Source of the DNA: Turritopsis dohrnii
Lineage: Eukaryota; Cnidaria; Hydrozoa; Anthoathecata; Oceaniidae
Assembly: GCA_027922465.2 (NCBI GenBank)
Contig: BQMF02000028.1
Location: 930,001-994,000, forward strand
Direction of reading: 5' to 3'
Length of the DNA stretch: 64,000 nucleotides
Below the pieces are notes generated by a model. It was not told the DNA's origin. It worked only from the letters and a program-made list of their open reading frames with translations, and did no database searches. A program made the translations under genes and the position numbers. This document shows positions 7,782-46,650 of this stretch, in pieces; position 1 is the stretch's first letter, and each line of letters starts with the position of its first letter.

Positions 7782-7880
7782 CTGCAAACAAAAAAAGACA
7801 AATTATTAACTATCAAAAAGAGACTGTCAAGATAAAATCCTGTGAAAAATTGCTTTATTTTAGGAAAAACTGATGGAAAC

Positions 7881-8701: not shown

Positions 8702-8734
8702 ATTTTTCCTCTTGGAATCTATTGCACAAATTTA

Positions 8735-9616
8735 GAACTTATCAAAGCTGTACGTGAAGTTTTACTACTTAATCTGTATAATACCCGATTCAAGAATTCA
8801 GAGCAAGAATTCAGTACTTGGCTGTTACAACTTGGTAACGGTGAACTTCCAACCAAACAAAACGAACCTGCTAGAGGTTCCATCGAAATTCCTGATTGTT
8901 GTGTTGTTCCTAAAGATACTTCAATTATATCTGTTATGTTCGATGGACTGGAGCCTCACCAATATGCTACCACAGCCATTCTGACACCGACAAATGAGCA
9001 ATCGTTGATCATTAATAATGAGGTGTTGGACAGACTGCCTGGAGATGTGGTTTGCTATTACAGTGCTGATGAAGTGGCGTGTGACGATGAAGAGGAGCAG
9101 CAAAACTATCCGGTTGATTATCTGAATAGTATTACACTATCCGGTATGCCTCCACATTGTTTGAAACTTAAAGTTGGGGCTATTATTATGCTTTTGAGGA
9201 ATCTGAACATCAGGAAAGGTCTCTGTAATGGCACCCGCTTGAGTGTTCGTGAATTGTCGCATAACTTTATTAAGGCTGAAGTTTTGACAGGGTCAGCAGT
9301 TGGGGAACTGATTTTTATACCTAGAGTACAATTGTCACCATCCGACACAGGTATGCCTTTTGTATTGAAGCACAGACAACTTCCTATTCGGTTGGCATAC
9401 TCTTTTACTATTAGCAAAAGCCAAGGTCAAACGTTTGATAAAATTGGTTTGTTTTTGCAGGAACCGTGTTTTTCCCATGGACAGTTGTATGTTGCCTGTT
9501 CAAGGGCAAAAGCATTTGGTAATGTTAAAATCAAAGTTGCCAGTACGAGTAAGCAAGGTTATAGTAATGGAAAGATGTATACTCAAAATGTTGTCTTTCC
9601 ACAGGTGTTGCTGTGA
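8735..9616 (+). pseudogene. Helitron helicase, C-terminal fragment
   Basis: The frame aligns with the C-terminal fifth of the complete Rep/helicase at 19308-23786: LLQLGNG / LLALGNG, TAILTPTNEQS, LSGMPPHCLKLKVGAIIMLLRNL, LCNGTRL, FTISKSQGQTF (helicase motif V/VI region), and HGQLYVACSRAKAFG. It ends at TGA after the conserved tail NVVFPQVLL. The Walker A and B motifs and the whole Rep domain are absent, so it cannot be an active transposase. The open frame continues upstream to about 8624, but those residues are antisense to the kinase and do not match Helitrons. Divergence from the full-length copy shows a separate lineage, not a recent duplicate. Confidence 0.9.
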
Positions 9617-10046
9617 ATGTTGTAATTGTCGTGGCCTATTCGGTTATATAACAAAATAGCATAAATACGTAGGTAGAGTAACAGTAACAGTAGAGTTTAC
9701 AGTTGATGTTTTTGTGGCTTCTTCTGTACGTCAGCCACTGTTTGATGTTGTGGCTTATTATAAGTGTATCCTAAACATTTGGTGTGGCCTCTGTTGAAAT
9801 TGTTGTTATTTGGCAACTTTGTACCTAAATGAACAGTCTGTATGTTTTGTTGTTTCTTTAGGTGGAGTACAAGTCCCATTGACTTACGTTCTCGCCGTGC
9901 ACTCCGTTACCATGAATTGTTCCTGAAGCAAACTTTGTGAACAATTCAGGAACCAAAAGTCAGGGCATGCTCCATATTATCTCTCCATGATTGTAACTTT
10001 TATTTTGTTTCATTTAGTGATATAAATAATAATTTGAAATTATAAT
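9617..10046 (+). other. Spacer between helicase fragment and micro-exon gene A
   Basis: No coding signal was seen. It probably holds the helicase 3' end and the promoter of gene A. A TATA-like stretch (gatataaataataa) lies about 25 bases before the proposed ATG at 10047. Confidence 0.35.
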
Positions 10047-11816
10047 ATGGGCGAACCAATGGATGTGTGTCGAGGTAACACATTAGTTTTTTTTAACTGT
10101 CTCGGAAAGGCATTAAGATACTAACAACAAATTAATTTTATTTCAGTGTTAGAAGATGGCGTGATTAGTAAAGGTAAATGGTTTTATTCAAATATAATCT
10201 TCTTTCATTTATACTATTTTGTCTATAATGATTCCTTTTGTTTTAAAGTAATTAGGATATTGAAAACAAATGAATTTCATTTCAGAGTTAGAAGAAGAAT
10301 TGCTAGGGGAAAAAAGTAAAAATTCTTTTCATATAACTTTTTTGTTTATTGATACTGTTGTAAGCATTTTTTTGTCATCTGCCAAACCCAGTTATTTGGA
10401 TTTCAATGAATTACATTTTAGTATGACTGCTTTTTTTGAAACAGAACATTCATTTTATCATTTTACCAATAAGTTGTTTTTCGTTTATACTTTTTTTTCT
10501 AGAAAATACAGAAAGAAGTAAGGATTGTTATAGAAATAACTCTGCTTTCTCTTGGAGTTTATCAGAACTACTTTTTAAACCTTTTTCTATTTAGATGCTT
10601 CTTCTACAGTAACAACAGTTACTTCTGATAGTAAAGGTCAATACACATTAATGTCTCCTTTCCATATGCAATAACCTTTATAACTTATATAGTACTTAGT
10701 CAATGTTGTATTTGCACTTTCTGTATGCTGCCATTATAGCATCTTCTTTTCCTCTATTTGATGTAGATATCAGCAAAGAACTTAAAAAGAGTAAGGATTG
10801 TTATTTTCGTTACATTTTTAGTTTCTATACACATAGTTCCTTTCAAGTGTATGAAATTTTTGTATGACAGCCACTTTTTAATTGTTTTATTATTATTTAG
10901 ATGAATCTTTACCAACAGCTGATAGTAAGAATTGATACACATTAATGTTGCATTGTTAGTGTCACATGTTTTAACCTTTACAATCACTTTATTGCATTAC
11001 ATTTAGTTGCATCAACATCATCATCGTCGTTGTGGTCGTCGTCAGTAGCTGGAAGTAAGCAATTTTTGGGTTCAATGAAAGATTTGTGAAGTAAATTCAT
11101 AATATTCTTATTCTTAATGTATTTCCAAGTTTAAAATTTTCATTTTCTTTGTCAGATTCTACAGCTAATGATGGTAGTGGTAAGGATTTCAATCAGAATT
11201 CATTTCAATTCCTTTTAAAATGCATTATTTGTAATCTGGGATGTGTGTATGAAGATTATTAACATAGTATTTTCCATCTTCTTCATATTTATTGATCTTT
11301 CATTACATCCATATGTCATCACTTTCTCAATCCTCTTTTCAATTTCATTTAGCTATTGCTACATCATCTAAAAAGGGTAATACCTCTTATGATTTTAAGC
11401 TAAACAAGACATTTGGCTGAGATTTGTGTCATAATTGCCTTTTGTTTTTGCTTTTTTATAGACTCTCAAGCCACAGAACGTATGTTTCTCATTATAGGTA
11501 TTATCAACTTTTACATGTACTTTTTTACTAACAGAATTTATTTCAATTAATTATAGTAGATAAATACAAAGACTTTATCGTATACCGACATACGCATCCC
11601 GGCCCCCGGTCTCAGGCTGCGTATCGGAAATGGAAGAGTCTCGGGGGTCGGGACCATCCACAGTTCAAGTGGACAAAAAATATTAAAAAAATACAAAAAC
11701 ATAAGACAAATAAACCACCAATTATGGGCCAAAGTAATGAAAAAGTAGTGTCTGAGAGCAGGCACTACACGGTCTATAACAATTTTGCACCTTCAGTTTT
11801 CAATTCATTAAAGTGA
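10047..11816 (+). CDS. Micro-exon gene A, putative Helitron accessory protein (about 185 aa)
   Basis: Proposed exons: 10047-10074 (ATG, 28 nt), 10147-10173 (27), 10286-10315 (30), 10503-10517 (15), 10595-10630 (36; an alternative donor gives 42), 10767-10790 (24), 10901-10924 (24), 11007-11054 (48), 11156-11179 (24), 11353-11376 (24), 11462-11479 (18) and 11557-11816 (ends TGA). Each internal exon is preceded by a pyrimidine tract plus AG and followed by GT, usually GTAAG or GTAAA. All are multiples of three and all introns are phase 1, so any exon may be skipped without breaking the frame. Internal exons encode short acidic or Ser/Thr-rich peptides such as LEEELLGEK, STVTTVTSD and ESLPTAD. 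The last exon is basic and aromatic, with YKDF, GPRSQAAYRKWKSLGG and FKWTKNIKK. It aligns without gaps to the last exon of gene B at 27374. No known domain was recognised, and the function is unknown. Confidence 0.65.
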
Positions 11817-12043
11817 CCTTAAAGCATTTTGAAGCTTTACACCTAAAAATAATCATAGTCCCTTAAATGCGTTGAAAACTGAAGGTGGGACGAAACTACC
11901 AAACATGAAATGTTAAGTCTCTTTGTTATTGGGCAAAACTAAACTTAAATGGCAATGACAAATTAAAGTTCATTAATTGTAAGGTAGTTTCATACAAACT
12001 GTTTATTGTTATAAATATTGAATAATTATAAATATGGAATATA

Positions 12044-14451
12044 CTAGTATCCCGGGTAAAAAATTTTTACCGAACTTAACTTTGAAAACATTAGGTCAAA
12101 TCTGCCATTACTGTGATACGTACGCGTCACTCGCCACCCATGTTCAGTATGCGTTGTGTCACAGAATTTAACTCGTGTAAAAGTTTCTTTTCAGGCATTA
12201 ATTTGTTATTACATTCAGAAGATTAAAAACAGAAACAAATAGCAACATGGCTCAGAATAATATATTTATACGCAGAAGAGAAGTAACTTTAATGTAAAAA
12301 AAATGGCAATATATAACACAGAACTGTTTACCCAGACATACGAAACCAAACATTGAATAACATTACAAAATGTGAATTGAAAACAAATTGATACCTTCCA
12401 ACTGTGTTTCTTTCGTGCGGAAGTTACATTATACAGCAACCATTAATGAATTTTTGAAATGATATATAGTCTGTTCTTCCCAAAACCATCAACGTCATGA
12501 TTAAAACCATGAGTTTCATTTCTTTATGCTTTTTTTGATTATTACCTAAAAAATTAATACTTCAATTGTAATACCGAAAACCTAATCATGCTATAAGAAT
12601 ATTGAAATAAACAACAACAACAACAACAACAAAAAATGGAATTCAACTACGCATTTATCCTAAAAACAATAACTCAAAACAACAAAACACCGTAATAGTA
12701 ATTGTAATACTGTAATACCGAAAACCTAATCATGCTATAAGAATATTGAAATAAACAACAACAACAAAAAGTGAAATTCAACTACGCATTTATCCTTAAA
12801 ACAAAAATTTACCCAGAAGATAAAAAGTCACAAATAAAATCATAAAATCAACCTATATACCCAGGTACGTAAACAATTACCATAACACAAAATAATGCAT
12901 AAACATTTCATTGCACAGTAATAACTAATGAACTTCTTACATACATAATCCATTCACATCTACCTTATGAATAATAATTAAAAACACAAACGTAATGACA
13001 GAATTTATATATCTAAAGAGTTTATAAAAAATTGAAAACAACCACATTTTTAATCTGAGTTAAAATCTCCTCTGGCTAATTCACAACAGTTAAACAACCC
13101 TTTATTCTTATTTATCCAGCATACCAACTGTGTTATAACTAAATAGATTTATACTATTTTAACTTTAGCTGAACTTCAAACAAAATGGGATACCTTTCAC
13201 TGCCAATTCACAGTAAACTAAACAGCATTGATCATCTTCTGTAGACATTTTCAAACACTTCTAAACTCTTTACTTCTATATTCATACCTGTAAACAAATT
13301 ACTAATACTTTATTTACTTTCCAGCACAAACATACATAGGCATTTATAAAACACTTTCGCTACCATTTTTTTTAAGTGAAATACATAAAACTGCTCTCTT
13401 CGTTTGGAAAAACTGCTAAACTTTCTGTATTTTCCAGTAGATTTTGTACTTTTTGGCAGGCAGACAAAAGCATCAAGCATCGATATAAATTAGATACAAT
13501 AGATACAATCAGACAGCATAACACATTCCCCACTTCCACAGTGTCATGAGAAATAAAAACATTCATAGCTGTAGGACCATTTTTAATGTAATAATAGCGC
13601 GCGTTACCAAAACATATTTCTCTCGGCTTCCTTTTCATCCAGCAGCTTATACACATACTAAACGACAGAATAACTGAGACATCCACTCAAAGCTAAATCA
13701 ATTAATCTTTCAAAACTAAATTAAAACCATTCCTTACTGTGTAAATAAACATGAAACTGCATTTCTCCACTGCACTTTCTTCTGTATAGCGATATTTGAT
13801 AACTAAAACGTAAACAAACATTTAAAAACCTGTTCTTTTATTAATCTAAAATATTAAACAATAAAAGTTCGTTCTGCACAGCCAATTTTTAAAAACTTCA
13901 CTGCACTTCTTCTGTATAAAAGTTTTATAATAATACCTTTTGTTCGTTCGATCTTTCTGCAGCTAATTTTTAAAAACTTCACTGCACTTCTTCTGTATAT
14001 CTAAATATGATTTTTCATTGTAAACAAACAAACGATAATAAAACGTTTTATAATAATAACAATACCTTCGTGCATACAAACCTGTGTTTCTTCGTCAGTT
14101 CTTTCGTCGATTTGCTGCCTAAAACAATCAAATTTAAATTAAAATATTCGTACACAAAAAGAAACACGTCTTGTTCACGAAATGATCGTTGACAAATTTC
14201 GAACGATTGACATTGCATTGCTCGCACTCCTCCAAAGACGTTTTTCAGCTGATTTCCAGTGCGCAAACCAAAAATAACAAAACGGAGGAGCATATACTAA
14301 TCGCGGAAAATGAAAAAAAGTGTCTCTCGTCTCTGCGTGGTTTTACGACAAAAAGGGAAAAAATAAGAAGGATTTGACCGTGAAAAAAAACCAAATATGT
14401 CACTCTCTAAAATAAAAGTGGTATGCACAAATGCGAATTAGTATAATAAGA
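12044..14451 (-). mobile_element. Composite non-autonomous Helitron, copy 1 of a head-to-tail triplet
   Basis: On the minus strand it starts with TC (14451-14450) and ends with CTAG (12047-12044), preceded by a 3' hairpin (ggtaaaaa/tttttacc at about 12056-12070). Plus-strand base 12043 is A, so the element is followed by T on its own strand, as for Helitron insertion between A and T. A second hairpin-like sequence, matching the 3' end of the 9.1-kb Helitron, lies internally at about 12125-12152. It contains an internal direct repeat of about 140 bp (about 12570-12700 and 12715-12820, with CAA runs). It also holds the short conserved ORF listed separately. Confidence 0.8.
14048..14293 (-). CDS. 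Short ORF conserved between composite Helitrons (possible captured exon)
   Basis: The 81-codon frame shares a nearly identical second half with the frame at 29790-30038 in another copy: DVFLFVYEYFNLNLIVLG, then SKSTKELTKKHRFVCTK. The first halves are also related (QC...F.....FRE / QC...F......LRE). The end of the conserved block is followed by CACAG-GTTTGT, which looks like a splice donor. No match to a known protein was recognised. Conservation between copies may simply reflect recent common ancestry of the elements, so coding status is uncertain. Confidence 0.3.
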   Translation of the reverse strand: MLLRFVIFGLRTGNQLKNVFGGVRAMQCQSFEICQRSFREQDVFLFVYEYFNLNLIVLGSKSTKELTKKHRFVCTKVLLLL

Positions 14452-17400
14452 CTAGTATCCCGGGTAAAAATTTTTTACGGGTTTTTACTTCTGAAAATGA
14501 CGTCTTATTATACTAATCCGGCGTCACTCGCCACCCATGTTCAACATGCGTCCAGTTCACGAAAAATAATTTTTTTTACCATTTTTAGTCAATGTGAGTT
14601 GAACCGAGAGAAAGGATTAGTCAATTAAATTCCCCCCAACATCAAAATAGTAATAACAATTGGAACATCGAAATTCTCCATATTCCCTCCTTTTGACCAA
14701 AACCATGTTTTTTATACCCCGAAGATGAAATGAAGAACACATACAAAACTATTTACCAACTATTTACCTAATGAAAAATTTTACCCTGGAGACACGAATT
14801 ATAACCAAACATTGCAACACTTAAAATGCCCTACTATTGACCGAAAACTATTTTGTTGATACACAGAAAATCCAAAGTAACTTCTTCGTAAAATTAATGC
14901 AAACCTATACACCAAAGAATCCAACATCACACTATTAAAAGAATGCGTATAAATGCATATGTGTATATCACTGGAACTGAACTGAATAAAGGTTTTGTAA
15001 AATTATTTTTTACCCGGAGGCGTGAAACAAACATTGCAGCAGTTAAAATGCCCTACTTCACACCAAAATCATGTTTTTACATGCAAAAGATTTAATGCAG
15101 AAACAAATGGCAATACAACAAAGAAATATATATTGTATACACAGAATAGAAGTAACTTTAGTGTAAAAAATCAATACATAAGAACACAAAAGCAAACATT
15201 GAATAACATATACGAAATGTGAATTGAAAACAAATCGGTACCTTCCAACCGTGTTTCTTTCGTGCCGAAGTTACATTGGACAGAATTTTTAAAATTGATA
15301 ATCTGTTCTTCACCAACCATCAACATCATGATCTAAACCATGAGTTTCATTTCTTTATTGTTATTGTATTTTTTATTATTAATCTTACCTAAAAGAACAA
15401 TTTTCAATTTCAATTGTATGATTATGCGGAAAACCTAATATATAATTGTCAAAACAAAAACAAAACAAAAACAAAAAGAAAATTCAAGTACGCATTTGAA
15501 ATAATAATTAAAAACACAAATTTAATGACAGAATTGGTATAGCTATAGATCGGATAGTCTATAAAATAAACCAATACTCTACTGGAGCTGAACAGAATAA
15601 AGACTTTCAACCTGGCATACACAACCAAACATCAAATTAATACAAATAATTGAAACAACGAAACACCCTATTTTGACCAAAACCATAATTTAATACCCAG
15701 AAGATATTAAAAACAACAAATACAAACATAATGCCAAACTTATATACCCAGCAGGCATAGTACGTAACAATTACCATAACACAAAATAATGAATGCCGAA
15801 ACATGAAAAACTGAAGAAAAATATACCCCAGCAATGCTTCTTTTTTGTAGTATTTTTGAAATGATATATAGTCTGTTCTTCCCAAAACCATCAACATCAT
15901 GACAAAAACCATGAGTTTCATTTCTTTAACAGTTTACGTGCTTTTTTATTATTAATGTTACCTAAAAAATATTTCAATTGTATAAAAATACAGAGAAAGA
16001 TAATCATGCTATGACATGGTTGAAATAAAAAAAGAAAACAAAAAGCAAAAAGAAAATTCACGTAGGTACTCATTTATCCTAAAAATAATTAATTACAAAC
16101 ACAAACAGAATTTGTAAAGCTTTAGATTGGAAAGTCTATAAAAGCAACCAATACTGTTAGTCAAAACATTAAATAAAAATAATTGAAACAATGAAATGCC
16201 ATACCAAAGCCATAATGTACCTAATACCAAAAAGATAAAAAGACAAAAACAGATAAAAACATAATGCAAAACTTATATACTCAGGCATAGTACGTAAACA
16301 ATTACCAAACACTAATCATGACAAAATATATATAATGCTTCTTTTGTTTGTAGCACAGTCATATCACATATTGTACAGCAATAATTAATGAATTTCTGAA
16401 ATATAATCCATTCCTCTGTTAACTAACCCTTGCAACATCATAATTTAACCATGTGCTTCATTTCTTTATGGTTTATATTCTTTTCTGACCTAAAAGAAAA
16501 AGATTTCAGTAAAGAACAGACACTCCACACTGCAACAACCATATTGAAGCAAACAAAAGCAAAACACATAAATGACAGACAGGCAGAGAGACAAACAACC
16601 AAACATCGTCAATAAAATAAAATATAAATATAATAAAAAGCAGACACATGGTTGAGATGAGATAAGACTGCATACTACGTTCCCCATTTCCACAGTCATG
16701 AGAACCATTCCTAATAAATAAATCTTCTTTGCTAACTAATGGCGTGCGTTACCAAAACAAATTTTTACTGCGCTCCCCCTTCGTTACTCCATCTCCTTTT
16801 CGCCTTCATCCAGCTTTCATCCAAACTTTCATGCAGCTTTCATCCAAAACGATTGAATTACGTTGACTCTTACACTCACACATTGATAATTCAAAACAAA
16901 CTTAAAATTGAAATTAAAACCATTCGTTAAACATAAACATTTTTTTTTCCGCATTTCTTCACTGCTCTTTCTTCTGTATAGCGATATTTGATAACTAAAA
17001 CGTAAACAAACGCATGTGTCACCTGTTAAAAAAAGCAATAAAATAAAATACTTTCGTACAGACCTGTTCGTTCGTTCTGCACAGCCAATTTTTAAAAAAT
17101 TCACTGCACTTCTTCTGTATTCTCACTATGCTTTCACATTGTAAACAAACAACTAATCACTTACACATGTGCTTTTATAAATCTAAAATACAATAACAAT
17201 ATAAGTTTAACAATAAACAGTTTCATAAGCAGCACGTATACAAACCTGTGTTTCTTCGTGAAAACAACTGCGATAATGATAATCGGTTATTAACGAACTT
17301 ATTTTTTGGAAATCGTCAACCAATCAAATTGGCGAAAAAATAATTTCTTGCGTTTTGATTGGTTTAAAAATTTAGACGTCACACTTAGATTACGTAACAT

Positions 17401-17540
17401 CAAAAAAAGTGTCTGTCGCTTCTACGTGGCTTTACGACGAAAAGGGAAAAAATAAGAAGGTTTTGACCGTGAAAAAAAAACAAATATATCACTCTCTAAA
17501 ATAAAAGTGGTATGCACAAATGCGAATTAGTATAATAAGA
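14452..17540 (-). mobile_element. Composite non-autonomous Helitron, copy 2 of the triplet
   Basis: The plus strand reads CTAG at 14452-14455, directly after the GA that ends copy 1, and finishes with GA at 17539-17540. On its own strand it therefore runs TC...CTAG. The 3' hairpin is at about 14463-14480 and the internal second hairpin (gtcactcgccacccatg) at about 14524-14540. It is the longest copy (3.1 kb) and has several internally repeated blocks built around AACATCATGATTNAAACCATGAG-like and ACCCAGAAGAT-like segments. No convincing coding capacity was seen. Confidence 0.78.
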
Positions 17541-18068
17541 TAGTATCTCGCGTAAAAGTTTTTTACGGCTTTAATTTCGAAAAGGATGTGTCGAAAATAG
17601 GTGATGAAAAATTAAATCACAAAATCGTGACTGGAAAGTGTTCCCATGTTGTAGAGCTCGAAAAGCTGATCAAAAAAGTGTATGGGATCGTTTCGCTACG
17701 ATCAACCGTTGTAGAGATATCGTCGATCAGACATTTTAATGACGTCATATCCGCAGTACCAAATAAAATTTTGACCCAAATGTTGCGTCACCCCATCACC
17801 CGTATCGCGGACCCTAAAAAACGTCAGTTATTCCTATTGGTTCTCGAGATATTTCCCCAAAAACGTCGCGTTCGATTGGGGATGCAATGCAATAAGATAA
17901 GATAAAAAAACTGACGTCACGCCGCGTGCTATTATACTAATCGTCAATTATCAATGGTCTAACGAAAAAATGACCACGATTAAGAAGATTTTGACCATTA
18001 AATAAACAAAAACACAACACTCTCTAAGTTAAATGTGTTGCACACGATTGCGAATTAGTATAAGTAGA
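17541..18068 (-). mobile_element. Short non-autonomous Helitron, copy 3 of the triplet
   Basis: The plus strand starts TAGTATCTCGCG (the expected first C of CTAG is missing) and ends AAGTAGA at 18068, followed by T. Its 3' hairpin is around 17550-17568. Its interior matches, in reverse orientation, the fragment at 28112-28562 (shared gtatcgcggaccctaaaaaacgtcag region), so it belongs to a second, shorter family whose 3' tail is the one also present on the composite elements. A 105-codon open frame inside (17588-17905) is not kept in the related copy and is not called. Confidence 0.7.
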
Positions 18069-18677
18069 TAGTTAATTGATTTCTTATGTGTCCTCGCATT
18101 GCAGACTATTTGCTTATCATTAGTTCATTTCTGTGTATCAATGAGTGAGTGTTGAACAAAGTTGCTCGAATTTCATTCTTTAATTTTGTTTCATTAAAAA
18201 CAAGACAACACACAGTTTTGTCAACTTATCAAATTATGTTTAATGAGAAATGATTTGAATGAAATAGATTTAGGGAAAATCGTTCATTGTCTTTAACTTA
18301 TATTTATTCAGATTATTTAGAGTTATAGTATTGGATTATTATATTGCGATTGAAGTCAACTTGGTCTTGGTAGTTCACAGAAAAAAAACATTATTGGCAG
18401 TATTGTATGGACAACCGTATCTGCTATAGTCTAGGAAGCATTGTCTAGGAAATTGTGAATGGAAGTTTAGTTTGTTTTGAGATATTGTCGGCTGCACATT
18501 TCTGTTTTAAATTCCATCTAATTTTTATAATTTTTTTTTAGATTCTTTTGGATTCTTTGGCTTCTCTTACGGATGCTATCATGTTCATCAATCCCTAAAA
18601 ATTCATTTTCCAGAAGATCCAATAATTCAAACTACGTTCAAAGATGCAATGTACTCGCTATTCACCGAGAATTGTTA
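18069..18677. other. Flank between Helitron triplet and the 9.1-kb Helitron
   Basis: No gene was recognised. It may include the remainder of the truncated Helitron that was split by insertion of the triplet at A12043/T18069. Confidence 0.4.
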
Positions 18678-19307
18678 TCTATATATTAATAGCCGATTCT
18701 CCGTTTGTCTGTTACGCAAAATGGTAGATTGAGGTGTGATTGTTTTCGTGTTTGTTTGTGTGATTAAAATCGGGGATCTGCAACGGAGAGATCGTGGAGA
18801 ACTTAAGCAAAGTAGGGGGGTATATAAATGTACAGCTCCTACCAAAGCAATGGCGATGACAGCATAAAATTGTAATGTTTTGAATTGAAATATATGTTAT
18901 CAAGTAATAGAAGAGAATTTTTCAATTAATACTTCTACAATACTTAATAATAACCCTGAATGAATCCCCTTTTAAGCAATTGCTAACCCCCGTTCAATGT
19001 CATGGCAATAGTTGGAAACTGATCAGGTTTGCTTTCAACCCTTTTGGTTCTTATTCCCGCGAAAAGAAAGTGAAGAAAGTTGAGAAAAAACGATCATTTT
19101 GTTTGTCTTTTGACAACAAAGGAAAGTTGTGTTTACTTTTTGTTTCTGTTGTCTGTATAGCTAGGTAAACAAAACACACCAGGCCTGTGTTTTTATTTTT
19201 GTGGTGATAAAAATTAGATATACATTCCTGTTATATTGTTCTTTTGAGTTTTTTCTCAACGAGTTACGAATTCTGATCATGACTATGCAGTCCCTCAAAG
19301 GTTTGTT

Positions 19308-22300
19308 TTGCCTAGATCGCAATTTGATAGAGATATTGTTGATTCACGGCAACATCAACATGATGAGAGGCAACAACAACCCCCTGCTGATGACCCTCAA
19401 CAACATCGTCACATTAGAAATGCTGCGCGACAAAGGAGATACCGTGGCAATCAAAGTGAAATTCGTGCTCAATTGAGAAGGGAGAGGGATGCACAAAATC
19501 AAAGGCAGCAACGGGCTAATGAGCAACCTGTACAGGCTGCTGCTCGACTTGAAGCACAAGCTCATCGACAACAGTTGCTTAGAGAAAATGAGCAACCCGA
19601 ACATGCTGCTGCTCAACGTGCAGCTAATGCTCAACAACACCAAAGAGCATATGTCCGAAACAGACGAGTGTGCAGGGCTCGCTTTTTAAATGATGCACGG
19701 ATTGATGTTGAAAACAATGGCCTACCTGACATTCATTCTTTAGGTGGATTTAACATTTTATGTGAACATTGTGGAGCTGTCAAATTCGACCGTGAAACTA
19801 ATTTTAAATGTTGCACAAATGGAAAGGTACAACTTCCAAATTTATTAGATTATCCGCCTGAGTTACGGAATCTTTTACTTGATGATTCTGCGCTGGGTAA
19901 ACATTTCCGTAAGTGTATTAGAGTTTATAATAATGCATTTAGTTTTGCTTCTCTGTCAGCTAATCTAAGTTCGCCCACAGGAAATGGGCCTCCATGTTTT
20001 AGGATATGTGGACAACTGCTACATAGGTATGGAGCACTGCATGCTAATGAAAACCAAGTGCCTATGTTTAGCCAGCTATCTATTATCGAAGCTGCTAATT
20101 CACTTGACATGCGTATGCAAAACCCTTCCAATGCGGATTGCAACAGAGACTTGATGGAGCAAATACAAGCGGTCATTAATAGAGTTTCACCTTATGCTGC
20201 AGCATATCGTAACTTGGCTCAGGTCGAACGAGAAGAAGAAGAAAGGGCATTTTTGGAAAATAGACCAACCTCTGTAGTGGGTATGTATATGCGAGAAGGT
20301 GAAGACAGGAGAAGAATCAATGCTCCACATCACAAAGAAGTTGCAGCAATTTTCGTAGGTAACGATGGTGCACCTCCTGCTGGTAGAAATATTGTAGTTT
20401 ATCCAAGAGATCAGCCCTTGCGTAATATTCCCTACACATCTACAAACATTGACTCCATGATGTATCCAATGATATTTCCTAGAGGCGATCCTGGATGGAG
20501 TCCGAACATGAATCACGTACAACAGCATGCAACTGAAAGGCGAAATAAAATTACACAGTTGCAGTATTATATTTATCGTATTGCCATTAGACGTGAATTT
20601 TCTGCTTTACATTTAGCTGGAAAACTATTTCAACAGTTTGTTGTTGACAGCTATGTCAAAGTGGAGGGAGCGAGACTCAACTTCATACGCCAGAACCAAG
20701 AACAATTACGGGCGGATAGCTACACAGGCTTGATGGACTATTTGGAGGAAGCTGCCCATGAACGAAACCTCCGTGCGGGTAATATCGTTGTATTGCCATC
20801 TACCTTTTCAGGTTCACCGAGAAATATGCACCAATTGTACCTAGATGCTATGGCATTAGTTTCAAAAAAAGGTAAACCAGATTTATTTTTAACTTTTACA
20901 TGCAATCCTAAATGGCCTGAAATTGTTCAAAATCTTTTGACTGGTCAAACTCCATCAGATAGGCCAGATCTGGTTACACAAGTATTCAAATTGAAGTTGG
21001 AAGCTCTTAAAAATGATATTATAAAAGATTCTGTTCTAGGTGTATCTGTAGCACAGGTGGATGTTATAGAATTTCAGAAAAGGGGGCTACCTCATGTGCA
21101 CATGCTGTTGCATCTTGGCAACGAATTTAAGTTACGCAATGCTGATGACATTGATTCATTGATATCAGCACGAATTCCAAATCGGGACCAAGAACCAGAA
21201 CTTTACGAAATCATCAAATCCTGCATGGTCCATGGTCCGTGTGGCCATTTGAATGTGTCTTCACCGTGTATGCAAGATGATAAGTGCAGTAAAAATTTTC
21301 CAAAGCAGTTCAACAATGGGACTGTTTTAAATGTGGACGGTTATCCTTTATATCACCGACCAGATGACGGAAGAACTGTTCGAATTCGGAATATGGATCT
21401 TGACAACAGATGGATCGTCCCATACAACCCTTTTCTCACCAAAAAGTACAATGCGCATTTAAACCTCGAGGCCTGTGTTTCCATTAAAAGCGTCAAGTAT
21501 TTGTACAAGTACATTTACAAAGGACACGATACTGCTCATATTGAAATCAATGAGCGTATCGATCACGACGAAATCAAAACCTTTTTAGATGCGAGGTATG
21601 TATCTGCTCCAGAAGCTGTGTGGCGTTTATGCTCTTTTCCAATGCACACTCTAAGTCATGCTATTTTACGACTTCCTGTTCACCTTCCAAATGAGCAGCT
21701 GATTTTTTTCAGAGAAGGACAGGAACAAGCAGCACTGGAAAGAGGACAAGAGCACACCAAGTTAACTGCTTGGTTCGAATTAAACCGTGTTGACGAACGG
21801 GCACGTCAATATTTATATCCTGATATCCCCCACCATTACGTGTTTCAAACACGACAACATAAGTGGGTGACACGGCAGCGTGGAGCAGAAAAAATTGTAA
21901 GTAGAATGTACAATGCTAGCATTCGGCAAGGTGAAAGGTATTTCTTACGTGTGCTGTTGTTACATGTTCCTGGTGCGACTTCCTTTGAATACCTTAGAAC
22001 TGTTAATGGGATTGTACATAGATCTTTTAGGGAAGCGTGTATTGCACTTGGACTATTGGATGACGATACTTTGTGGATACGAACCATGGAGGAACTTGCC
22101 GCATCAGCAACTCCCTCTAAAATTCGCAAAGCGTTCTCCTTTATTCTGATCCATGGAGAGCCAAGCAATCCAGCTGAATTGTGGGAAAGATTCCGTGCTC
22201 ACATGGTTGAAGATTTTTTGAGACACCAGCCGGAAGTACAAGCAGAGCAGTCAGCTCTTGGTAAAATTCAGGAAGTTCTTCAGCAATTTGGTAGGGCTGT

Positions 22301-23786
22301 TACTGACTTTGATTTACCTGGTTTGGCACAAGCTATTGCTGTTGATTTACCAAATGCTAATGAAATGAGGGAAGAGGCCATCAACATGAAGAACACGTTG
22401 AACGCTGACCAGCTTGCTGTTGCCGACGCAGTCCTTGATGCAGTGGCAACACACAAGAATAATAGTGCTAAAATTTTCTTCATTGATGGACCCGGTGGAA
22501 CAGGTAAAACTTTCACGTACAATTACATCATTCGTGAGGTTATAGGAAGAAACCTATCAGTAAGTACGTGTGCGTGGACTGGAATTGCAGCAACACTGTT
22601 ACAAAATGGTAAGACAGTCCATTCTCTTTTTAAATTACCTGTTCCTGTATTGGACAATTCAACGTGCAATGTCAAGCCTAATAGTAGGCACGCCGATTTT
22701 TTACGTAACCAGCATATTGTAATATTTGATGAGGCAAGTATGATTCCTAAGCATGCACTTGAGGCTATTGATAGAATGTTTAGAGATATCTGTAACAGTG
22801 ATGTGCCTTTTGCTGGAAAGGTTGTTCTTTTAGGTGGTGATTTTAGACAGACTCTTCCGGTTGTGAAAAGAGGCAGACCAGCTCAGATAGTGGAAGCATG
22901 CATAATAAGCTCTGTCTTGTGGCCAATAGTGCGAATCTTTCATCTGAATGTCAACATGAGAGCTGCTCCTGGGCAAAGCGAATTTGCGGAATTCCTACTT
23001 GCATTAGGTAACGGAGCGATACCGAAAAAAGTGGATGATCCATTTAAAGATTCCATTGAAATTCCGCATGAATGTGTTTTGCATGAAAATAATGATATCG
23101 TCCACTTTATTTTTAGTGATGCTGGAGGACAGCATATGTCGAGTCTTGTTATTCTGACACCGACCAATGACGAGGCTTTGGTGATTAACGAACGGATTCT
23201 GCAGAGAATGCCTGGTGAAATGGTCACATACTTTAGTGTAGATTCTGTTGTCTCTGATGAGCAAGAAGAGATTGATCTGTATCCTATGGAGTTCATCAAT
23301 TCGCTTACTCCTTCTGGAATGCCTCCACACCGGTTGAACTTGAAAGTCAACAGTATAGTGATGCTGCTGCGAAATTTATCATTGAAGGATGGTTTATGCA
23401 ACGGCACACGATTAGTCATCCGTAATCTCCGAGAGAATATCCTTGATTGTGAAGTGCTGACCGGTATCTCCGCTGGAAATCGGGTGCTCATTCCTAGAGT
23501 AACCCTGTGTCCGAATGATACCAACCTTCCGTTTCAGCTGAAGCGAACACAATTTCCTCTCCGTTTGTCCTATGCAATAACCATTAACAAAAGTCAAGGT
23601 CAGACTTTTGAACGGGTTGGTATTTATATGCAAAGGCCTTGCTTCAGTCACGGTCAACTGTATGTTGCATTTTCACGAACACGAAGCTTTGAAGCAGTGA
23701 AAGTAAAGGTTTGTAGAACTTTACAGCAAGGCTATGTTAGAGAGAGATGTTACACTAGAAATGTAGTCTATCAACAGGTATTATGA
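19308..23786 (+). CDS. Helitron Rep/helicase transposase (about 1490 aa)
   Basis: This is a single long ORF for the rolling-circle transposase that nicks, unwinds and transfers one strand of the element. Its N-terminal region is rich in Gln/Arg, with a Cys cluster (CEHCG...FKCC) near residues 150-170. The Rep nuclease has the HUH motif in FQKRGLPHVHMLL near residue 590 and the Tyr motif in YLYKYIYKG near residue 730. The SF1 Pif1-type helicase has Walker A GPGGTGKTF near 1060, Walker B FDEASM near 1140, GGDFRQTLP near 1175, TINKSQGQTF near 1425 and LYVAFSRTRS near 1450. All key residues are present and no frameshift is visible, so it could be functional. The codon at 19308 is TTG; the frame is open from 19248 with no ATG. 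The true start is therefore probably on an upstream spliced exon, with an acceptor such as TATGCAG just before 19291. The last sense codons CAG-GTA form a donor-like site. Confidence 0.95.
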   Translation: MPRSQFDRDIVDSRQHQHDERQQQPPADDPQQHRHIRNAARQRRYRGNQSEIRAQLRRERDAQNQRQQRANEQPVQAAARLEAQAHRQQLLRENEQPEHAAAQRAANAQQHQRAYVRNRRVCRARFLNDARIDVENNGLPDIHSLGGFNILCEHCGAVKFDRETNFKCCTNGKVQLPNLLDYPPELRNLLLDDSALGKHFRKCIRVYNNAFSFASLSANLSSPTGNGPPCFRICGQLLHRYGALHANENQVPMFSQLSIIEAANSLDMRMQNPSNADCNRDLMEQIQAVINRVSPYAAAYRNLAQVEREEEERAFLENRPTSVVGMYMREGEDRRRINAPHHKEVAAIFVGNDGAPPAGRNIVVYPRDQPLRNIPYTSTNIDSMMYPMIFPRGDPGWSPNMNHVQQHATERRNKITQLQYYIYRIAIRREFSALHLAGKLFQQFVVDSYVKVEGARLNFIRQNQEQLRADSYTGLMDYLEEAAHERNLRAGNIVVLPSTFSGSPRNMHQLYLDAMALVSKKGKPDLFLTFTCNPKWPEIVQNLLTGQTPSDRPDLVTQVFKLKLEALKNDIIKDSVLGVSVAQVDVIEFQKRGLPHVHMLLHLGNEFKLRNADDIDSLISARIPNRDQEPELYEIIKSCMVHGPCGHLNVSSPCMQDDKCSKNFPKQFNNGTVLNVDGYPLYHRPDDGRTVRIRNMDLDNRWIVPYNPFLTKKYNAHLNLEACVSIKSVKYLYKYIYKGHDTAHIEINERIDHDEIKTFLDARYVSAPEAVWRLCSFPMHTLSHAILRLPVHLPNEQLIFFREGQEQAALERGQEHTKLTAWFELNRVDERARQYLYPDIPHHYVFQTRQHKWVTRQRGAEKIVSRMYNASIRQGERYFLRVLLLHVPGATSFEYLRTVNGIVHRSFREACIALGLLDDDTLWIRTMEELAASATPSKIRKAFSFILIHGEPSNPAELWERFRAHMVEDFLRHQPEVQAEQSALGKIQEVLQQFGRAVTDFDLPGLAQAIAVDLPNANEMREEAINMKNTLNADQLAVADAVLDAVATHKNNSAKIFFIDGPGGTGKTFTYNYIIREVIGRNLSVSTCAWTGIAATLLQNGKTVHSLFKLPVPVLDNSTCNVKPNSRHADFLRNQHIVIFDEASMIPKHALEAIDRMFRDICNSDVPFAGKVVLLGGDFRQTLPVVKRGRPAQIVEACIISSVLWPIVRIFHLNVNMRAAPGQSEFAEFLLALGNGAIPKKVDDPFKDSIEIPHECVLHENNDIVHFIFSDAGGQHMSSLVILTPTNDEALVINERILQRMPGEMVTYFSVDSVVSDEQEEIDLYPMEFINSLTPSGMPPHRLNLKVNSIVMLLRNLSLKDGLCNGTRLVIRNLRENILDCEVLTGISAGNRVLIPRVTLCPNDTNLPFQLKRTQFPLRLSYAITINKSQGQTFERVGIYMQRPCFSHGQLYVAFSRTRSFEAVKVKVCRTLQQGYVRERCYTRNVVYQQVL

Positions 23787-23929
23787 ATATTTTTACCTTG
23801 CAAAAATATTTGTGCAATTGATATTAAATGTTTTGAATTGAAACTTTACGCAAGGTTAATGAGGAGGCATCACATTACATTACCTGGAAATTAAATTGGT
23901 ATACATTGAATTGAATAATACTGAAATTA

Positions 23930-24180
23930 AAGCAGTTTACATTGAAATGAATTACATTGAAATGAATTACAATGAATTGAATTACATTGAATTGAATTAC
24001 ATTGAATTGAATTGAATGAGTATAGCATTAGATTAGATGACCTAGAAATTAGATTAGTTTACATTAAACAGTAGATTGAATATGCCAAATGAACCTAGAA
24101 ATTAGATTAGTTTACATTAAACAGTAGATTAAATATGCCAAATGATTAGTATAAAGCATTAGATTAGATTACCTGAAACT
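23930..24180. repeat. Short tandem repeats downstream of the helicase
   Basis: Repeats of ATTGAATTGAATTAC type (15 bp) run from about 23935 to 24015. They are followed by two copies of a roughly 65-bp unit beginning acctagaaattagattag at about 24040 and 24094. They are non-coding and lie inside the 9.1-kb Helitron. Confidence 0.7.
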
Positions 24181-24207
24181 TTGAGTAGATTGAAGATTGA
24201 ATAGATT

Positions 24208-24360
24208 ATGGAAAAATATGGAAGCGGCATGGAGCTGGGTGGAGGAGGGTATGAAAGCGGCATGGAGCTGGGTGAAGGAGGGTATGAAAGCGGCATGGAG
24301 CCGGATGGAGGAGGGTATGAAAGCGGCATGGAGCCGGGTGGAGGAGGGTAGGCAAGCGGC
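24208..24360 (+). repeat. 33-bp minisatellite with open reading in more than one frame
   Basis: About four copies of a 33-bp unit (atggagcyggrtggaggagg followed by gtatgaaagcggc) occur in tandem. From ATG at 24208 one frame reads a Gly-rich repeat (GYESGMEPGGG type) to a TAG at about 24351. The overlapping frame reads EEGMKAAWS repeats. A unit length divisible by three keeps both frames open. It could be coding (Gly-rich tail or separate exon) or a plain minisatellite; I see no proof of expression. Confidence 0.6.
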
Positions 24361-24600
24361 AAAAAGCCGTTGTATGTGTGACATATTGTAATTTATTCTC
24401 TTTTTTTGAGATACTGATGTCATTGAAAAGGCAGTTTTATCATTGTTATACAGTAACATATGGCCATACATGTTGATCTGCATGGTTTCTTGGTTTCTTG
24501 GTATGAATGTTTCGCTTACAATTCTTTTCTTTTTTTAACCTGATAGACCATTACTATTTTTTGTACCTGCAGTTCTCTTAGATTTTCTTTTCTTTTTTAG

Positions 24601-24669
24601 ATAATGAGACAAAGCGTAAACCTCTACTCATAATTTGCATGTTGTGTAGCTTTGGATTGAGACACTTGG
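24601..24669 (+). other. Exon-like micro-exon candidate (69 nt)
   Basis: A pyrimidine tract plus AG (24599-24600) precedes, and GTAAGA follows, a 69-nt stretch that is open in phase 1 and hydrophobic (LLIICMLC). Length and phase match the micro-exons of genes A and B. However, gene B has its own ATG at 26845, and no partner exon was found upstream. Confidence 0.25.
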
Positions 24670-25133
24670 GTAAGAAATCTTTTGAAAATATTCCTCCTAA
24701 CTTGAGCCTTTGTTAACAAATTGAAAGTAGATTCAGTTAAATTTTTTCACAAGTTCATGTTGTGAGCACAACTTAATTTCCAAAACTTAATATGTTTAGA
24801 GTTTGCGTAGTGTCGTAGAATAGAAAATACATATCAGCTTAATGTGAAGAAAGATGAAATTTCGTCGCACTTGAGAGATTGGTCTATGTTTATTGAGATG
24901 ATAAAAAGTTAGGAAGTTAGACATGGCTGCATGTTCACAAGTGGTTTTGTTTATAATTCAGTGACATCCCCCACCCTTTTTTTAAAAGTTACCATTTCTT
25001 GCAAGTCCCAATGAGCATTGTTTATTTTACCTATCTATACGGTTTCTTCTGGAAGAATAGACTTAGTCAATCCCCTTTGGCTTGGGATAACCAGGAGTCG
25101 GTATAACAATCACATGTGTTTCATATATTCTTG

Positions 25134-26551
25134 CAGTCATTGAAATTCAATATAAAATACTTTGGCAATCAATTGCCGAGGGAAATGTCGAAAATTTGTG
25201 TTCACCTCGGCAGTACCTCGGCAATTCTATTTGCCGAAGCACAAGTAAAATTTTATTTGAGACACTTCGGCATTTCCTTCGGCAGCCCTCGGCATTTCCT
25301 TCGGCATGGTCGAAACACTTATCGAAAATGTAAAGTGTAATATTTATTGCTTTGGTTTGTTGTTTTCTGGATGTCTACTTTATCATAATAGATCAAAACA
25401 GAATAAAGATGCTATACTTAGAAAAAACTAAACAATAAAACTGTAAAAACACTTGCATGTACCACCAAATTAATGTTCTCTAATTTTCTTTCTTCCAAAA
25501 CAGAATGGTTTTAACGTTGTCAAAGTATATTTTAATGAATAGGACATCACTATGTTTCTTCTCGTTTATTAAAAAAATACAGAGAGTGTGTATAGCGTGA
25601 TCGAAATCACTGACAATTATTTGTTCTTATGAGTTTCTTATGAGTTCCCACGCATCGACTGTTTTCTTCTTAACCATGCTTGTTTAGTACATAAGCAAAA
25701 CTTTTCTCTATATTTTTTCGAAGACTTCTTTAAGCCGTATTTCCACTAGACGATTTTTAAGACGATCGTCTTAAATTTTCGCGACGACAAATGCGCAGAA
25801 GAGTAAAACTGATCGTCGCGGCGAAGATATTCTCTCGACGAAAAGTAGAAATGACTTTAACTTTTCGTCATGCGAACGACGATCGTCAAATTCTAAACCC
25901 AATGGCATGGCAGTAATTTCCAACTTTCCAACATAACCAGTTTCAAAGATGACTGACAATGTGGAAGACACACTACTGTTGATATCAATACTGTAAAAAT
26001 TAATATTCTTTTTCATTTTAAGAGTGATCTCCACTTGACGATTTTTTCGTCGCGAAAAAAATCGCTTCGCGCGAACTTTTTCGTCTAGTGGAGATCCGGC
26101 TATAAAGTATTCTTTACAGAAGACAATCTAGTGCCAGTTACAATTACAACCTGCACTAGATTCTTCTTTGTTTAAACTTGGCGTCATGTATAAAAAACGA
26201 TTATAAAGAAAAGTATAAATTATTCATATTTTTACTTCCCTATTGTTTTATAAGCGCTCTGATCGACGACATCAATTCCTTCGGAATGTTTTTTGAATGT
26301 GTGTAAAAGATTTAAAAAGACCAGCGGTTTAATAGATATAAGTGATTTTTTCACTATTAAAAACAATACAAACTCCCCGCATAAACATTTGTTTCCGGTC
26401 AAACATGTATAAACGATAAAAAAAATGTAAACGAAATAACTGAAAAAGTTTACCTCGGCAATAAAATTGCCGAGGAAATATGGAAAATGCCTCGATTACC
26501 TCGGCAAAAACCTCGGCATTTGCCGAGTGCCGAGGTGAATTTCAATGACTG
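25134..26551. mobile_element. 1.4-kb TIR transposon with CTCGGCA subterminal repeats
   Basis: There are perfect 16-bp TIRs, CAGTCATTGAAATTCA at 25134-25149 and its complement at 26536-26551, flanked by a 6-bp duplication TTCTTG (25128-25133 and 26552-26557). Many copies of CCGAGG/CTCGGCA lie within about 200 bp of each end, in both orientations, as expected for transposase-binding subterminal motifs. There is no transposase ORF, so it is non-autonomous. The CAG terminus is hAT-like, but the 6-bp duplication is atypical, so the superfamily is left open. It lies in the spacer between helicase and gene B of the 9.1-kb Helitron. Confidence 0.8.
25733..26101. mobile_element. Nested foldback MITE
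   Basis: Inverted ends are AGCCGTATTTCCACTAGACG at 25733-25752 and the complement of AGCCGGATCTCCACTAGACG at 26082-26101, with two mismatches. The inner right side has a second inverted copy (TCTCCACTTGACGA at about 26030), giving a compact foldback at 26028-26098. The interior has repeated CGTCGCG/GATCGTC motifs. The target duplication is unclear. It is nested in the element at 25134-26551. Confidence 0.6.
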
Positions 26552-26844
26552 TTCTTGAGAAAAACTAAGAGAAAAAAGAAGTAACTTTGTTCCACAGTTT
26601 TTCTTTATAAAAGTGTTTAAAGTGATTTCATATTTATCTGATTATAACTTGAACTATTGTCCAGTATCTTCTCTTTCTTTTAATTAGCATAAAACGTATT
26701 GGCTGTTAGATATCGCTTTTCTGTATCTCTTTCATGTAGCTTTAATACTTAGCACTTTTAGTCAACGTTCGTATTATCACATAGAAATGACATATTTACC
26801 GCATGTCCAAAAAAAGTATTCTTGACTATTTTTTATTTTTTCAG

Positions 26845-27558
26845 ATGGCAAACAACAACATTAACCAAAACCACAACAACAATATCCAAGCTGCACTTGC
26901 AGCATTGTGTAAGCACCTCACGATAATTCATTTTGTTATATGAATACTGTTTTCAAGTTCAATCTTTTACAATGTTTCATTAAATCTTTGTTTTCCTTTT
27001 AGTTCAAAATTTAAATAATCGAGGTATGTCCATTTCTTTTCACAAAATCTATGATTCTCTGTAAGAATGGTACTTTTTATTTCTATTTTTTTTATTTATA
27101 TCATGTTATTGTTGCTTACTTTTTTTTTTTATTATTTTTTTTTTTTTAGATATGGAGCAGCTTCTTGGTAAGTCGCTGCAGTAGTTGTTGCCTAATTTTT
27201 TGTACTTGATTTTCATGTGTAGATATGTCATTCTTAATTCATTCCATAATTTAGAAAATTTGAATCTCGAGGAACATGGCCGGGAGCCAGACCCAGAAAT
27301 CAGTAAGAATTCAATTAACCTTCTTATTATTATCATTCTTCAATTATTAACTAAGGATACTTTCATTTTATAGTTGGAGTCTACACGCGCTTCCTGCGGG
27401 AGCAGCTGGCCCGAGGAGGGCCAACAACCGATGCCGCCCTCGGCTCGTGGGTGCGGCATGGAGGGGTTTTTCTCCCGCCAGAAAGCACCCACAATAGGAG
27501 CCGGGGGAATGGCCGGGGACAGGGCCGAAATAATCGCAACAGGCCGCGGCCATATTAA
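26845..27558 (+). CDS. Micro-exon gene B, putative Helitron accessory protein (111 aa)
   Basis: Exons: 26845-26908 (ATG directly after TTTTTCAG; 64 nt), 27003-27023 (21), 27150-27167 (18), 27255-27302 (48) and 27374-27558 (ends TAA). Every intron is phase 1 and has good AG/GT signals, and the sum is exactly 111 codons. The N-terminus is Asn/Gln-rich (NNNINQNHNNN). The middle is acidic (NLNLEEHGREPDPE). The last exon has YTRFLREQLARGGPTTDAAL, then GSWVRHGG, and a basic Arg/Asn/Gly tail (RGNGRGQGRNNRNRPRPY), suggesting nucleic-acid binding by inference. The last exon is GC-rich compared with its surroundings. AATAAA follows at 27655. It lies inside the Helitron, 200 bases before the terminal hairpin, in the same position relative to the helicase as gene A. 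An acceptor abutting ATG implies an upstream 5' exon. No known family was recognised. Confidence 0.72.
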
Positions 27559-27654
27559 ATAACTTGCGCTTTGCGGTTTGGAAACTTGTGAAAGTTTTTG
27601 TAAATAATTGAATTTGTAAATAATTTAATTTGTTTGTAAATAATTGAATTTGTA

Positions 27655-27660
27655 AATAAA
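27655..27660 (+). terminator. Polyadenylation signal of gene B
   Basis: AATAAA lies 97 bases after the gene B stop codon, with a second TAAATAAAT-like copy just after it. Confidence 0.55.
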
Positions 27661-27731
27661 AAACGTTAAATAAATACTTCGATTCTTTTCTTGATTTTTT
27701 GTCAAGTCTTTGCATACTGCAGGTGGACATG

Positions 27732-27761
27732 GGCGGCGAGCGACGCCGCCTTGGCGGCTAG
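27732..27761 (+). promoter_or_regulatory. Helitron 3' terminal hairpin and CTAG end
   Basis: Stem GGCGGCG (27732-27738), loop AGCGA, stem CGCCGCC (27744-27750), then TTGGCGG and CTAG with host T at 27762. This is the transposition terminator of the 9.1-kb element. Confidence 0.75.
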
Positions 27762-28111
27762 TTTCCAAGAATACATGGATTAAACCATCAAAACGCATTG
27801 AGGACTGTTAACGAAGTGGATATACACTTTTGCAAAAGTGATTAAAAAAAGCCTTTATTTGGTTTATTTATTTATTTGTTTATGTTATCTTAGGATACTT
27901 TCTTGGTGTAGTATTGTCAACACTTTTTCATGTGAATTTATGTTTCTGCTGAACATTCTATGACATATTTTGCTCAACCATATAGCCAGCATTTTCGAAA
28001 TTAAAACCGGTAAAAAAAGTTTTTTCCCGGGTTATAACCATCCCATACATTTTTGATAAGTTTTTGGAGCCAATTCCTTAATTTAATTTAGTGATAAATT
28101 TTGTTGAATTT
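27762..28111. other. Spacer with a degenerate Helitron 3' end
   Basis: At about 27992-28035 there is TTTTCGAAATTAAAACCGGTAA followed by the T-run stem and CCCGGGTTAT. It resembles the 3' terminal hairpin of the short Helitron family but lacks CTAG. Nothing else was recognised. Confidence 0.5.
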
Positions 28112-28562
28112 TAAGGTCAAAACCTTCTCAATCGTGGTCATATCTTTCGTTAGGCCATGCGTTTTTTTACGATTATTATATAGTAGCAAGTGCCGTGATG
28201 TCAGTTTTTTATTCTATCACGGGGAATCATTGCATTGCATCCCTAATCGAACGCGACGTTTTTGGGGAAATATCTCAAGAACCAATAGGGATAACTGACG
28301 TTTTTTAGGGTCCGCGATACGGGTGATGGGATGACACAAAATTTGGGCCTAAATTTAATTTGGTATTGCGGCTATGACGTCATCGCAATCTTAAACCGAC
28401 GATATCTCTGTAACGGTTGGTCGTAGCGAAATGATCCCATACACTTTTGAGCTGCGATTCTATGATTTATTTTTTCGTCACGGGGTATGTACACGGGAAT
28501 GGTGGATTTGACCTATTGTTTTCGAAATTAAGTTTGGTAAAAAATTTTACCCGGGTTACTAG
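28112..28562 (+). mobile_element. 3' fragment of the short Helitron family
   Basis: It ends with hairpin ggtaaaa/ttttacc and CTAG at 28559-28562 before T. The body is the reverse-orientation relative of 17541-18000, sharing the segments around gtccgcgatacgggtgatggg and cgaacgcgacgtttttgggg. The 5' terminus is missing, so it is truncated on the left. Confidence 0.7.
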
Positions 28563-29524: not shown

Positions 29525-29619
29525 TAATCTGCTATCATGCTTTAAAGTGCTTTATCGTACGTTAAAGATGTTTTACCAGTAGCTGACTGTAATACCACAC
29601 TCTAGAATAAGCAAATTTA

Positions 29620-32073: not shown

Positions 32074-32103
32074 TAACAACATAATTCACAATTGAACCAT
32101 TAC

Positions 32104-46597: not shown

Positions 46598-46650
46598 CTA
46601 GCCACCAAGGCGGCGTCAATCGTCGCCCATGTTTAACATGTGTTACCCAA
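46598..46650 (-). mobile_element. Isolated 3' terminus of the 9.1-kb Helitron family
   Basis: On the minus strand it reads ACATGGGCGACGATTGACGC then CGCCTTGGTGGCTAG, nearly the same as the end at 27728-27761, with CTAG at 46601-46598 followed by T. It confirms that hairpin as a genuine family end. The rest of this copy is missing or very short. Confidence 0.6.

Follow-up and report, generated by a model that had tools for sequence, protein, structure and literature searches.

The 64,000 nucleotide stretch of the Turritopsis dohrnii genome studied here (contig BQMF02000028.1, positions 930,001 to 994,000, hereafter the window) contains two small multi-exon genes, A and B, each located downstream of the helicase of a Helitron transposon and on the same strand. 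We propose that A and B belong to one fast-evolving family of second Helitron genes, the product of which is most likely a nucleic-acid-binding cofactor of RepHel, the Rep-helicase protein of these elements, and we place the probability of this reading at about 0.58. A second Helitron gene had been suggested in an earlier note made from the letters of the window, and this interpretation is supported by further Helitrons carrying the same domain in the window's genome.

Linkage of the accessory genes to RepHel

The window's own genome (436 Mb, 891 contigs) was searched with the C-terminus of the B helicase and, as protein, with the last exons of genes A and B, and the counts given below are among the matches listed, which were the best 150 of 1882 candidates for the B-type RepHel, the best 150 of 199 for gene B and the best 150 of 658 for gene A. 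A B gene was located downstream and on the same strand within 6 kb of 92 of the 150 B-type RepHels, at a median distance of 2151.5 bases (1.9–2.4 kb in 77 of the 92), and conversely a RepHel was present within 6 kb upstream of 93 of the 150 B places. The presence of the domain downstream of RepHel within 10 kb was the test named in the earlier note, and at this distance 95 pairs were downstream on the same strand, one was downstream on the opposite strand and one was upstream on the same strand. Shifting the B places by +50, +100 and -50 kb gave 1, 0 and 1 pairs, respectively. This contrast with the controls, together with Pfam and PDB searches that gave no significant match for either gene, argues against gene B being an ordinary host gene located away from Helitrons. 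No A gene was found downstream on the same strand within 10 kb of the 150 B-type RepHels, with six pairs of A genes and B-type RepHels seen in other arrangements, and the type of accessory gene thus matches the type of RepHel among the lists compared.

For gene A, linkage is based on a systematic sample in which every 15th row of the A and B lists was taken (10 copies each) and the slice 2.6–3.4 kb upstream was inspected. A same-strand RepHel was present in this slice for 5/10 B copies and 5/10 A copies, with the five A cases matching the A-type helicase at about 92–95%. RepHel and accessory gene were also found in one stretch at three loci (L060, L061 and L063), with the RepHel in several frames in L060 and L063. 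A fusion of the domain to RepHel was considered and rejected, as two text patterns for the motif were found in 0/120 listed RepHel relatives. The C-terminus was reached by 82 of these 120 relatives, and 66 of the 82 end within 10 residues of the RepHel C-terminus. In gene A, an in-frame stop precedes the ATG by 12 bases with no AG in between, and a splice from the end of RepHel into exon 1 of gene B is possible.

Gene models and exon structure

Gene A consists of 12 exons (10047–11816) and gene B of 5 exons (26845–27558), both on the + strand, with all introns being GT-AG and in phase 1, and all internal exons having lengths that are multiples of 3 (15–48 bases). The exons of gene A are located at 10047–10074 (exon 1, with the start codon), 10147–10173, 10286–10315, 10503–10517, 10595–10636, 10767–10790, 10901–10924, 11007–11054 (exon 8, for which the exon-chain search favoured an acceptor at 11046), 11156–11179, 11353–11376, 11462–11479 and 11560–11816 (exon 12, encoding the core domain and C-terminal motif, with the conserved acceptor at 11560 and 11557 also possible in the window copy). 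Those of gene B are located at 26845–26908 (exon 1), 27003–27023, 27150–27167, 27255–27302 and 27374–27558 (exon 5, encoding the conserved core domain and an RG-rich tail). The ATG of gene B is positioned immediately at an AG acceptor, and an untranslated exon further upstream is therefore likely.

The small multi-exon genes predicted behind the helicases were recovered as GT-AG models at the predicted positions, with exon-chain scores above those of resampled sequence. These scores were calculated by dynamic programming with untrained splice matrices, and were 55.9 for gene A and 32.6 for gene B, whereas the highest scores among 300 order-1 resampled sequences for each gene were 25.1 and 21.8, respectively. 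Over 132 runs elsewhere in the window, the maximum was 17.0. The top-scoring chains deviate from the models at one acceptor in A and in the upstream exons in B, and a stricter run recovered partial chains only. In a codon-usage test the correct frame was clear for gene B (53.0, next 35.9) and weak for gene A (15.4, next 13.7 for a reverse frame). Exon-intron units are repeated in the window copy of gene A, and in a loose scan of six A loci the tiny-exon style of the N-terminal part persisted with varying exon content.

Predicted protein features and role

The last exons encode protein with a charge of +13 in A and +8 in B, in line with the basic C-terminus described earlier, and the N-terminal parts have a charge of -7 and -6, respectively. 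AlphaFold models of both proteins display two helices (residues 2–12 or 13 and 19–27), with fair confidence across the first 30 residues of the B model. In the mechanism that we propose, the gene follows RepHel on the same strand at a distance of about 2 kb, toward the 3′ terminal hairpin, and is spread together with the element by rolling-circle transposition. The predicted protein would have an N-terminal part of acidic or Asn-rich low complexity, encoded by the frame-neutral tiny exons, followed by a core of two helices (Y-x2-F ... G-P ... W-x3-G-G) and a basic tail that is K-rich or RG-rich. It may function as a nucleic-acid-binding cofactor of its own RepHel, and would attach to the terminal hairpin or to the single strand displaced as the element is transferred by a rolling circle; this putative role resembles the one expected for RPA-like proteins in other Helitrons. 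Nucleic-acid binding is suggested by the charge, the RG-rich tails and the two predicted helices, and a cofactor fits the charge, the place and the type pairing; we favour this predicted function tentatively, at slightly under even odds, and as more likely than a role in counter-defence.

Neither A nor B had a significant match when their sequences were searched in Pfam and PDB, no OB-fold or RPA family of Pfam was matched by A or B at E ≤ 10, and no OTU or endonuclease domain was found in RepHel B, in A and B or in 14 members of the domain. The best match in PHROGs had an E-value of 0.025, and Rfam gave no match of use. The core may recall helices of HMG-box or YABBY proteins, but this likeness has no support in Pfam. 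Scans of viral contigs with the last exons of A and B, the B helicase, the RepHel alignment and the domain alignment gave no finds, and with the helicase alignment 20 viral-contig loci and one locus of a bacterial genome were obtained, which were taken for Pif1-type helicases. Weak matches of RepHel to phages were obtained with tblastn, with the five listed all located in the helicase part. The named RepHel relatives of highest identity are from the hydrozoans Clytia (70%), Hydractinia (62%) and Hydra (60%), with a further relative being 78% identical and other animals ranking after the hydrozoans.

The best-surviving alternative is that the gene encodes a counter-defence or regulatory factor, which blunts host silencing or controls the expression of the element itself and is not part of the transposition machinery. 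This would agree with accessory genes outpacing RepHel in divergence, as seen where similar helicases are accompanied by different accessory subfamilies (C17, C306, C284 and C564), with the retention of the gene in two short units without evident RepHel, and with the variable N-terminal tiny-exon content of the six A loci scanned. Yet the core is conserved, and the ratio of nonsynonymous to synonymous divergence (dN/dS) was below 1 in 35 of the 36 pairs (0.20–0.87, with one at 1.03) formed by nine A-family last exons. The accessory type also tracks the RepHel type among the matches listed, as would be expected of a RepHel partner, and we consider counter-defence unlikely as the role of the gene.

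The difference in divergence, taken relative to A of the window, was seen for C17, with a dS of 0.056 for the helicase slice and 0.98 for the accessory exon (Fisher test on synonymous changes, 3e-11), and was also seen for C306 (4e-4), C284 (1e-6) and C564 (9e-4), with no such difference for C231 and C31. On the B side, 5 of 7 pairs differed at p < 0.05, mostly mildly and without correction. Such discordance could result from exchange, from homogenisation of the helicase or from a higher substitution rate of the accessory exon, and the finding of similar helicases with strongly diverged accessory genes hints at cassette exchange. In a model of this kind, the RepHel backbone would be nearly constant and the second gene would be swapped between elements, like phage accessory genes. 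The frame-neutral tiny exons would duplicate and turn over, the protein would make the element specific, either toward its own hairpin or against silencing by the host, and short elements carrying only the gene may supply it in trans; we regard this model as possible, while leaning against it.

Relationship between A and B

Aligned at the splice site, the last exons of A and B are identical at 10 of 36 residues. The score of this alignment (34) was reached by 0/20000 anchored shuffles, and the common pattern reported in the earlier note was found as written. That note also had both exons aligning without a gap from the acceptor and in the same phase. Phase 1 is indeed common to both, but the acceptor in seven other gene A copies is TAG|AT at 11560, the window copy having an additional AG 3 bases upstream of it, and with this conserved acceptor the A-B alignment is shifted by one codon from the splice site. 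Comparison of profiles built from 12 A members and 6 B members, picked by hand, gave a P of 7.3e-5 and a score of 23.9, with 100 column shuffles scoring no higher than 17.3. An alignment of 14 hand-picked members has six invariant columns (F, G, P, W, G and G), and the intermediates L096 and L097 have an A-like core joined to a B-like RG-rich tail. The family is defined by Y-x2-F-[IL]-x7-GP ... W-x3-GG in a last exon that follows phase-1 tiny exons behind RepHel, and this combination was found. From these comparisons, A and B are likely to be homologous.

Alternatively, A and B may be unrelated accessory genes, with the ten common positions resulting from convergence in a short helical motif. 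An unanchored comparison is compatible with this, as 20 of 5000 shuffles attained the best ungapped score of the pair; most A members score poorly with the B profile, and the two genes differ in their tails and in the register of the acceptor. Convergence would leave their equal place in the element, their equal phase-1 tiny-exon architecture, the profile P of 7e-5 and the combination of an A-like core with an RG tail in the intermediates as coincidences, and we therefore judge it quite improbable.

Copies, intactness and selection

Searched as protein, the last exons of A and B are each present in at least 150 copies, and a DNA search with the last exon of gene A gave 40 places among the matches listed, of 140 candidates. 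By hand count, stops within the match were present in 11/150 B rows and 24/150 A rows. Of the 30 B loci with the highest scores, one of which is that of the window, 25 have retained all five exons, the splice sites and the frame, the others being affected in the frame (L033), a donor (L036), a missing 5′ part (L041 and L053) or by a stop (L054). Three subfamilies (B1, B2 and B3) were distinguished among the best B loci, and changes in the length of the Asn run of gene B go in threes. Between the B subfamilies, dN/dS was 0.14–0.34 in ten representatives, with too few changes for an estimate within subfamilies.

The C-terminal motif FAPSVFNS was retained in 27 of the 30 best A loci, and the possibility that the C-terminal end of A is a mere palindromic insert, as raised by a 101-base inverted match at that position, was rejected on this basis. 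The motif was not seen in the portions read of the distant loci L096–L100. A-family copies also occur in tandem runs, at about 1465896–1473942 of C11 (spacing 3902), about 178680–185688 of C28 (spacing 3383) and about 196298–233444 of C257 (spacing about 9250 bases), with the C28 unit having a weak match to the last RepHel residues only.

Several observations weigh against a family of RepHel cofactors encoded by second Helitron genes. A listed B gene was absent within 6 kb of 58 of the 150 B-type RepHels, part of which may be explained by B genes beyond the list, and 10 of the 20 sampled A and B copies were without a same-strand RepHel in the slice inspected (one A copy with a RepHel on the opposite strand, nine with none). 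No RepHel was evident in one unit of each short tandem run (3902 bp in C11, 3383 bp in C28), so the gene can apparently spread without RepHel in cis, and in L063, which has the long A-type RepHel, the accessory exon is broken behind the core. The hhalign probability for A and B is just 62%, the A model is weak (mean predicted local distance difference test score of 54.9), and a PDB fold search with the B model gave no significant match. Protein searches with A and B gave no relative outside their own genome at E ≤ 10, in a database that does contain hydrozoan RepHels.

The comparison with introns also weighs against this reading. Between B1 and B2, intron identity is about 0.89–0.92 and coding identity about 0.84–0.85, with dN (about 0.10–0.13) near the intron divergence; in comparisons with B3, dN is below it. 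Synonymous sites diverge fast, most of all in the GC-rich last exon of B, which accounts for the high coding divergence relative to introns and could come from biased mutation or exon exchange. The low dN/dS is in part the result of this unusually high dS, which makes selection less secure than the ratio by itself would suggest. This intron result slightly lowered our confidence in a second Helitron gene encoding a RepHel cofactor and slightly raised the odds of a passenger. That the gene is a host gene captured once by an ancestral Helitron and carried along, which would suit the frequent capture of gene fragments by Helitrons (in the consulted part of PMC6431247), the hint of a cellular origin given by the introns, and coding sequence no more conserved than introns between B1 and B2, is nevertheless the least probable explanation, since a passenger is expected to decay, whereas among the 30 best B copies the 25 intact ones are spread over three subfamilies, the gene accompanies two RepHel types that are just 51% identical, and neither Pfam, PDB nor the protein searches yielded a cellular relative.

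The Helitrons and other features of the window

Helitron B is a complete element (18678–27761, + strand), with the 5′ end TCTATATATTAATAG starting with TC at 18678 and a 3′ end (27732–27761) consisting of a GC-rich hairpin at 27732–27750 and CTAG at 27758–27761. It is inserted between A and T, with no target duplication visible by eye at the flanks. Its 5′ end recurs in L060 and L061, and a T follows the CTAG 3′ end in four printed insertions (L038, L039, L043 and L044). In L047 and L058, the 3′ end is fused to the 5′ start in head-to-tail junctions (CTAG|TCTATATATTAATA), as expected for rolling-circle elements. RepHel B is encoded by an open reading frame of 1512 codons (19248–23786, + strand) with Helitron_like_N (E 1.4e-60) and PIF1 helicase (E 1.2e-57) domains, and gene B is the last coding feature ahead of the hairpin. 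A foreign insertion with inverted ends, read from the sequence, separates RepHel B from gene B at 25136–26553 (limits approximate) and explains the longer spacing in the window copy; DNA similarity to 5 of 6 other B1 copies begins at about 26552.

The earlier description of both elements as helicase-bearing holds for B, with its Rep and Pif1 domains, but not for element A of the window, which is a 3′ remnant that has kept the C-terminus of the helicase alone (8755–9616, + strand); a longer RepHel in two open stretches is present in the related A-family copy L063. Likewise, the two Helitrons are separate elements but not independent in descent, as the C-termini of their helicases are 51% identical. 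A strict scan of the window for hairpin and CTRR matched only the end of Helitron B, and the A-related tandem unit L095 has a junction-like site GGGCGGCTA|TCTTATTATACTAAT without a canonical CTRR. Locus L062 of C46 matches window positions 2261–11975 at about 98–99% DNA identity, and the C46 copies are therefore not independent of the window.

A protein kinase reading frame is located at 7881–8675 on the - strand, its start adjoining the truncated helicase A, and in the 98–99% identical C46 copy the kinase and helicase A are likewise neighbours, with a junction that is longer by about 138 bases. Many repeat copies at 117–265, 12043–18070, 28099–32075 and 46687–53371, some with a similar hairpin-like motif or TCTTATTATACTAAT-like ends, are perhaps non-autonomous A-type Helitrons. 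On the - strand at 46597–48560, decayed spliced frames appear RPA-like by eye and include a zinc-ribbon-like stretch (Zn_ribbon_6, E 0.0038, below the cut-off), with 46597–46632 resembling the 3′ end of Helitron B at 89%, and this region may be what is left of a Helitron that carried an RPA-like gene. At 54395–64000, inverted repeats of 1372, 1083 and 803 bases are present, all with 100% complementarity and with the outer arm touching the end of the window, and stem either from a palindrome of very recent origin or from an artefact of the assembly. A reverse transcriptase frame (RVT_1, E 1.6e-5, below the cut-off) is located at 54304–55536 on the + strand, the C-terminal end of which presumably resembles a GIY-YIG endonuclease, as in Penelope-like elements.

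Comparison with known Helitron genes

Helitrons have mostly been described via RepHel, with additions such as RPA, OTU, endonuclease and zinc-finger domains in some lineages. Among the papers listed in a search of titles and abstracts, with Repbase Reports outside its scope, none described a Helitron gene like A or B, and the family is apparently undescribed. If a further gene is kept behind two diverged types of RepHel, then a model of transposition by RepHel only would be incomplete for this group. A and B offer a concrete candidate for a protein that binds the hairpin at the end of the element or the single-strand intermediate, and these transposons may also provide a natural experiment on the exchange of genes.

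The many tiny exons with lengths in multiples of 3 are also found in the micro-exon genes of schistosomes, but the likeness is limited to exon style, as those are host genes with other products. Another parallel is provided by the RPA-like genes of some Helitrons, as outlined in the consulted parts of PMC6431247 and PMC4683698. The RPA-gene Helitrons of plants, cnidarians and fish likewise carry a second, non-RepHel function together with RepHel, and the role proposed here is similar, whereas A and B have no RPA or OB-fold match and differ in domain, size and tiny-exon architecture. Extra domains have also been added in other elements of the Helitron group, Helentrons among them, with OTU protease, AP endonuclease and zinc fingers described in the portions seen of PMC6431247 and PMC4289320, and A and B differ in having no significant match to such domains. 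Finally, capA, capB and capC of fungal Helitrons are genes of unknown function beside RepHel, as are A and B; by the description in the consulted part of PMC4289320, on which this comparison is based, the fungal genes were captured and are mostly species-specific, whereas A and B would form one family that accompanies two types of RepHel.

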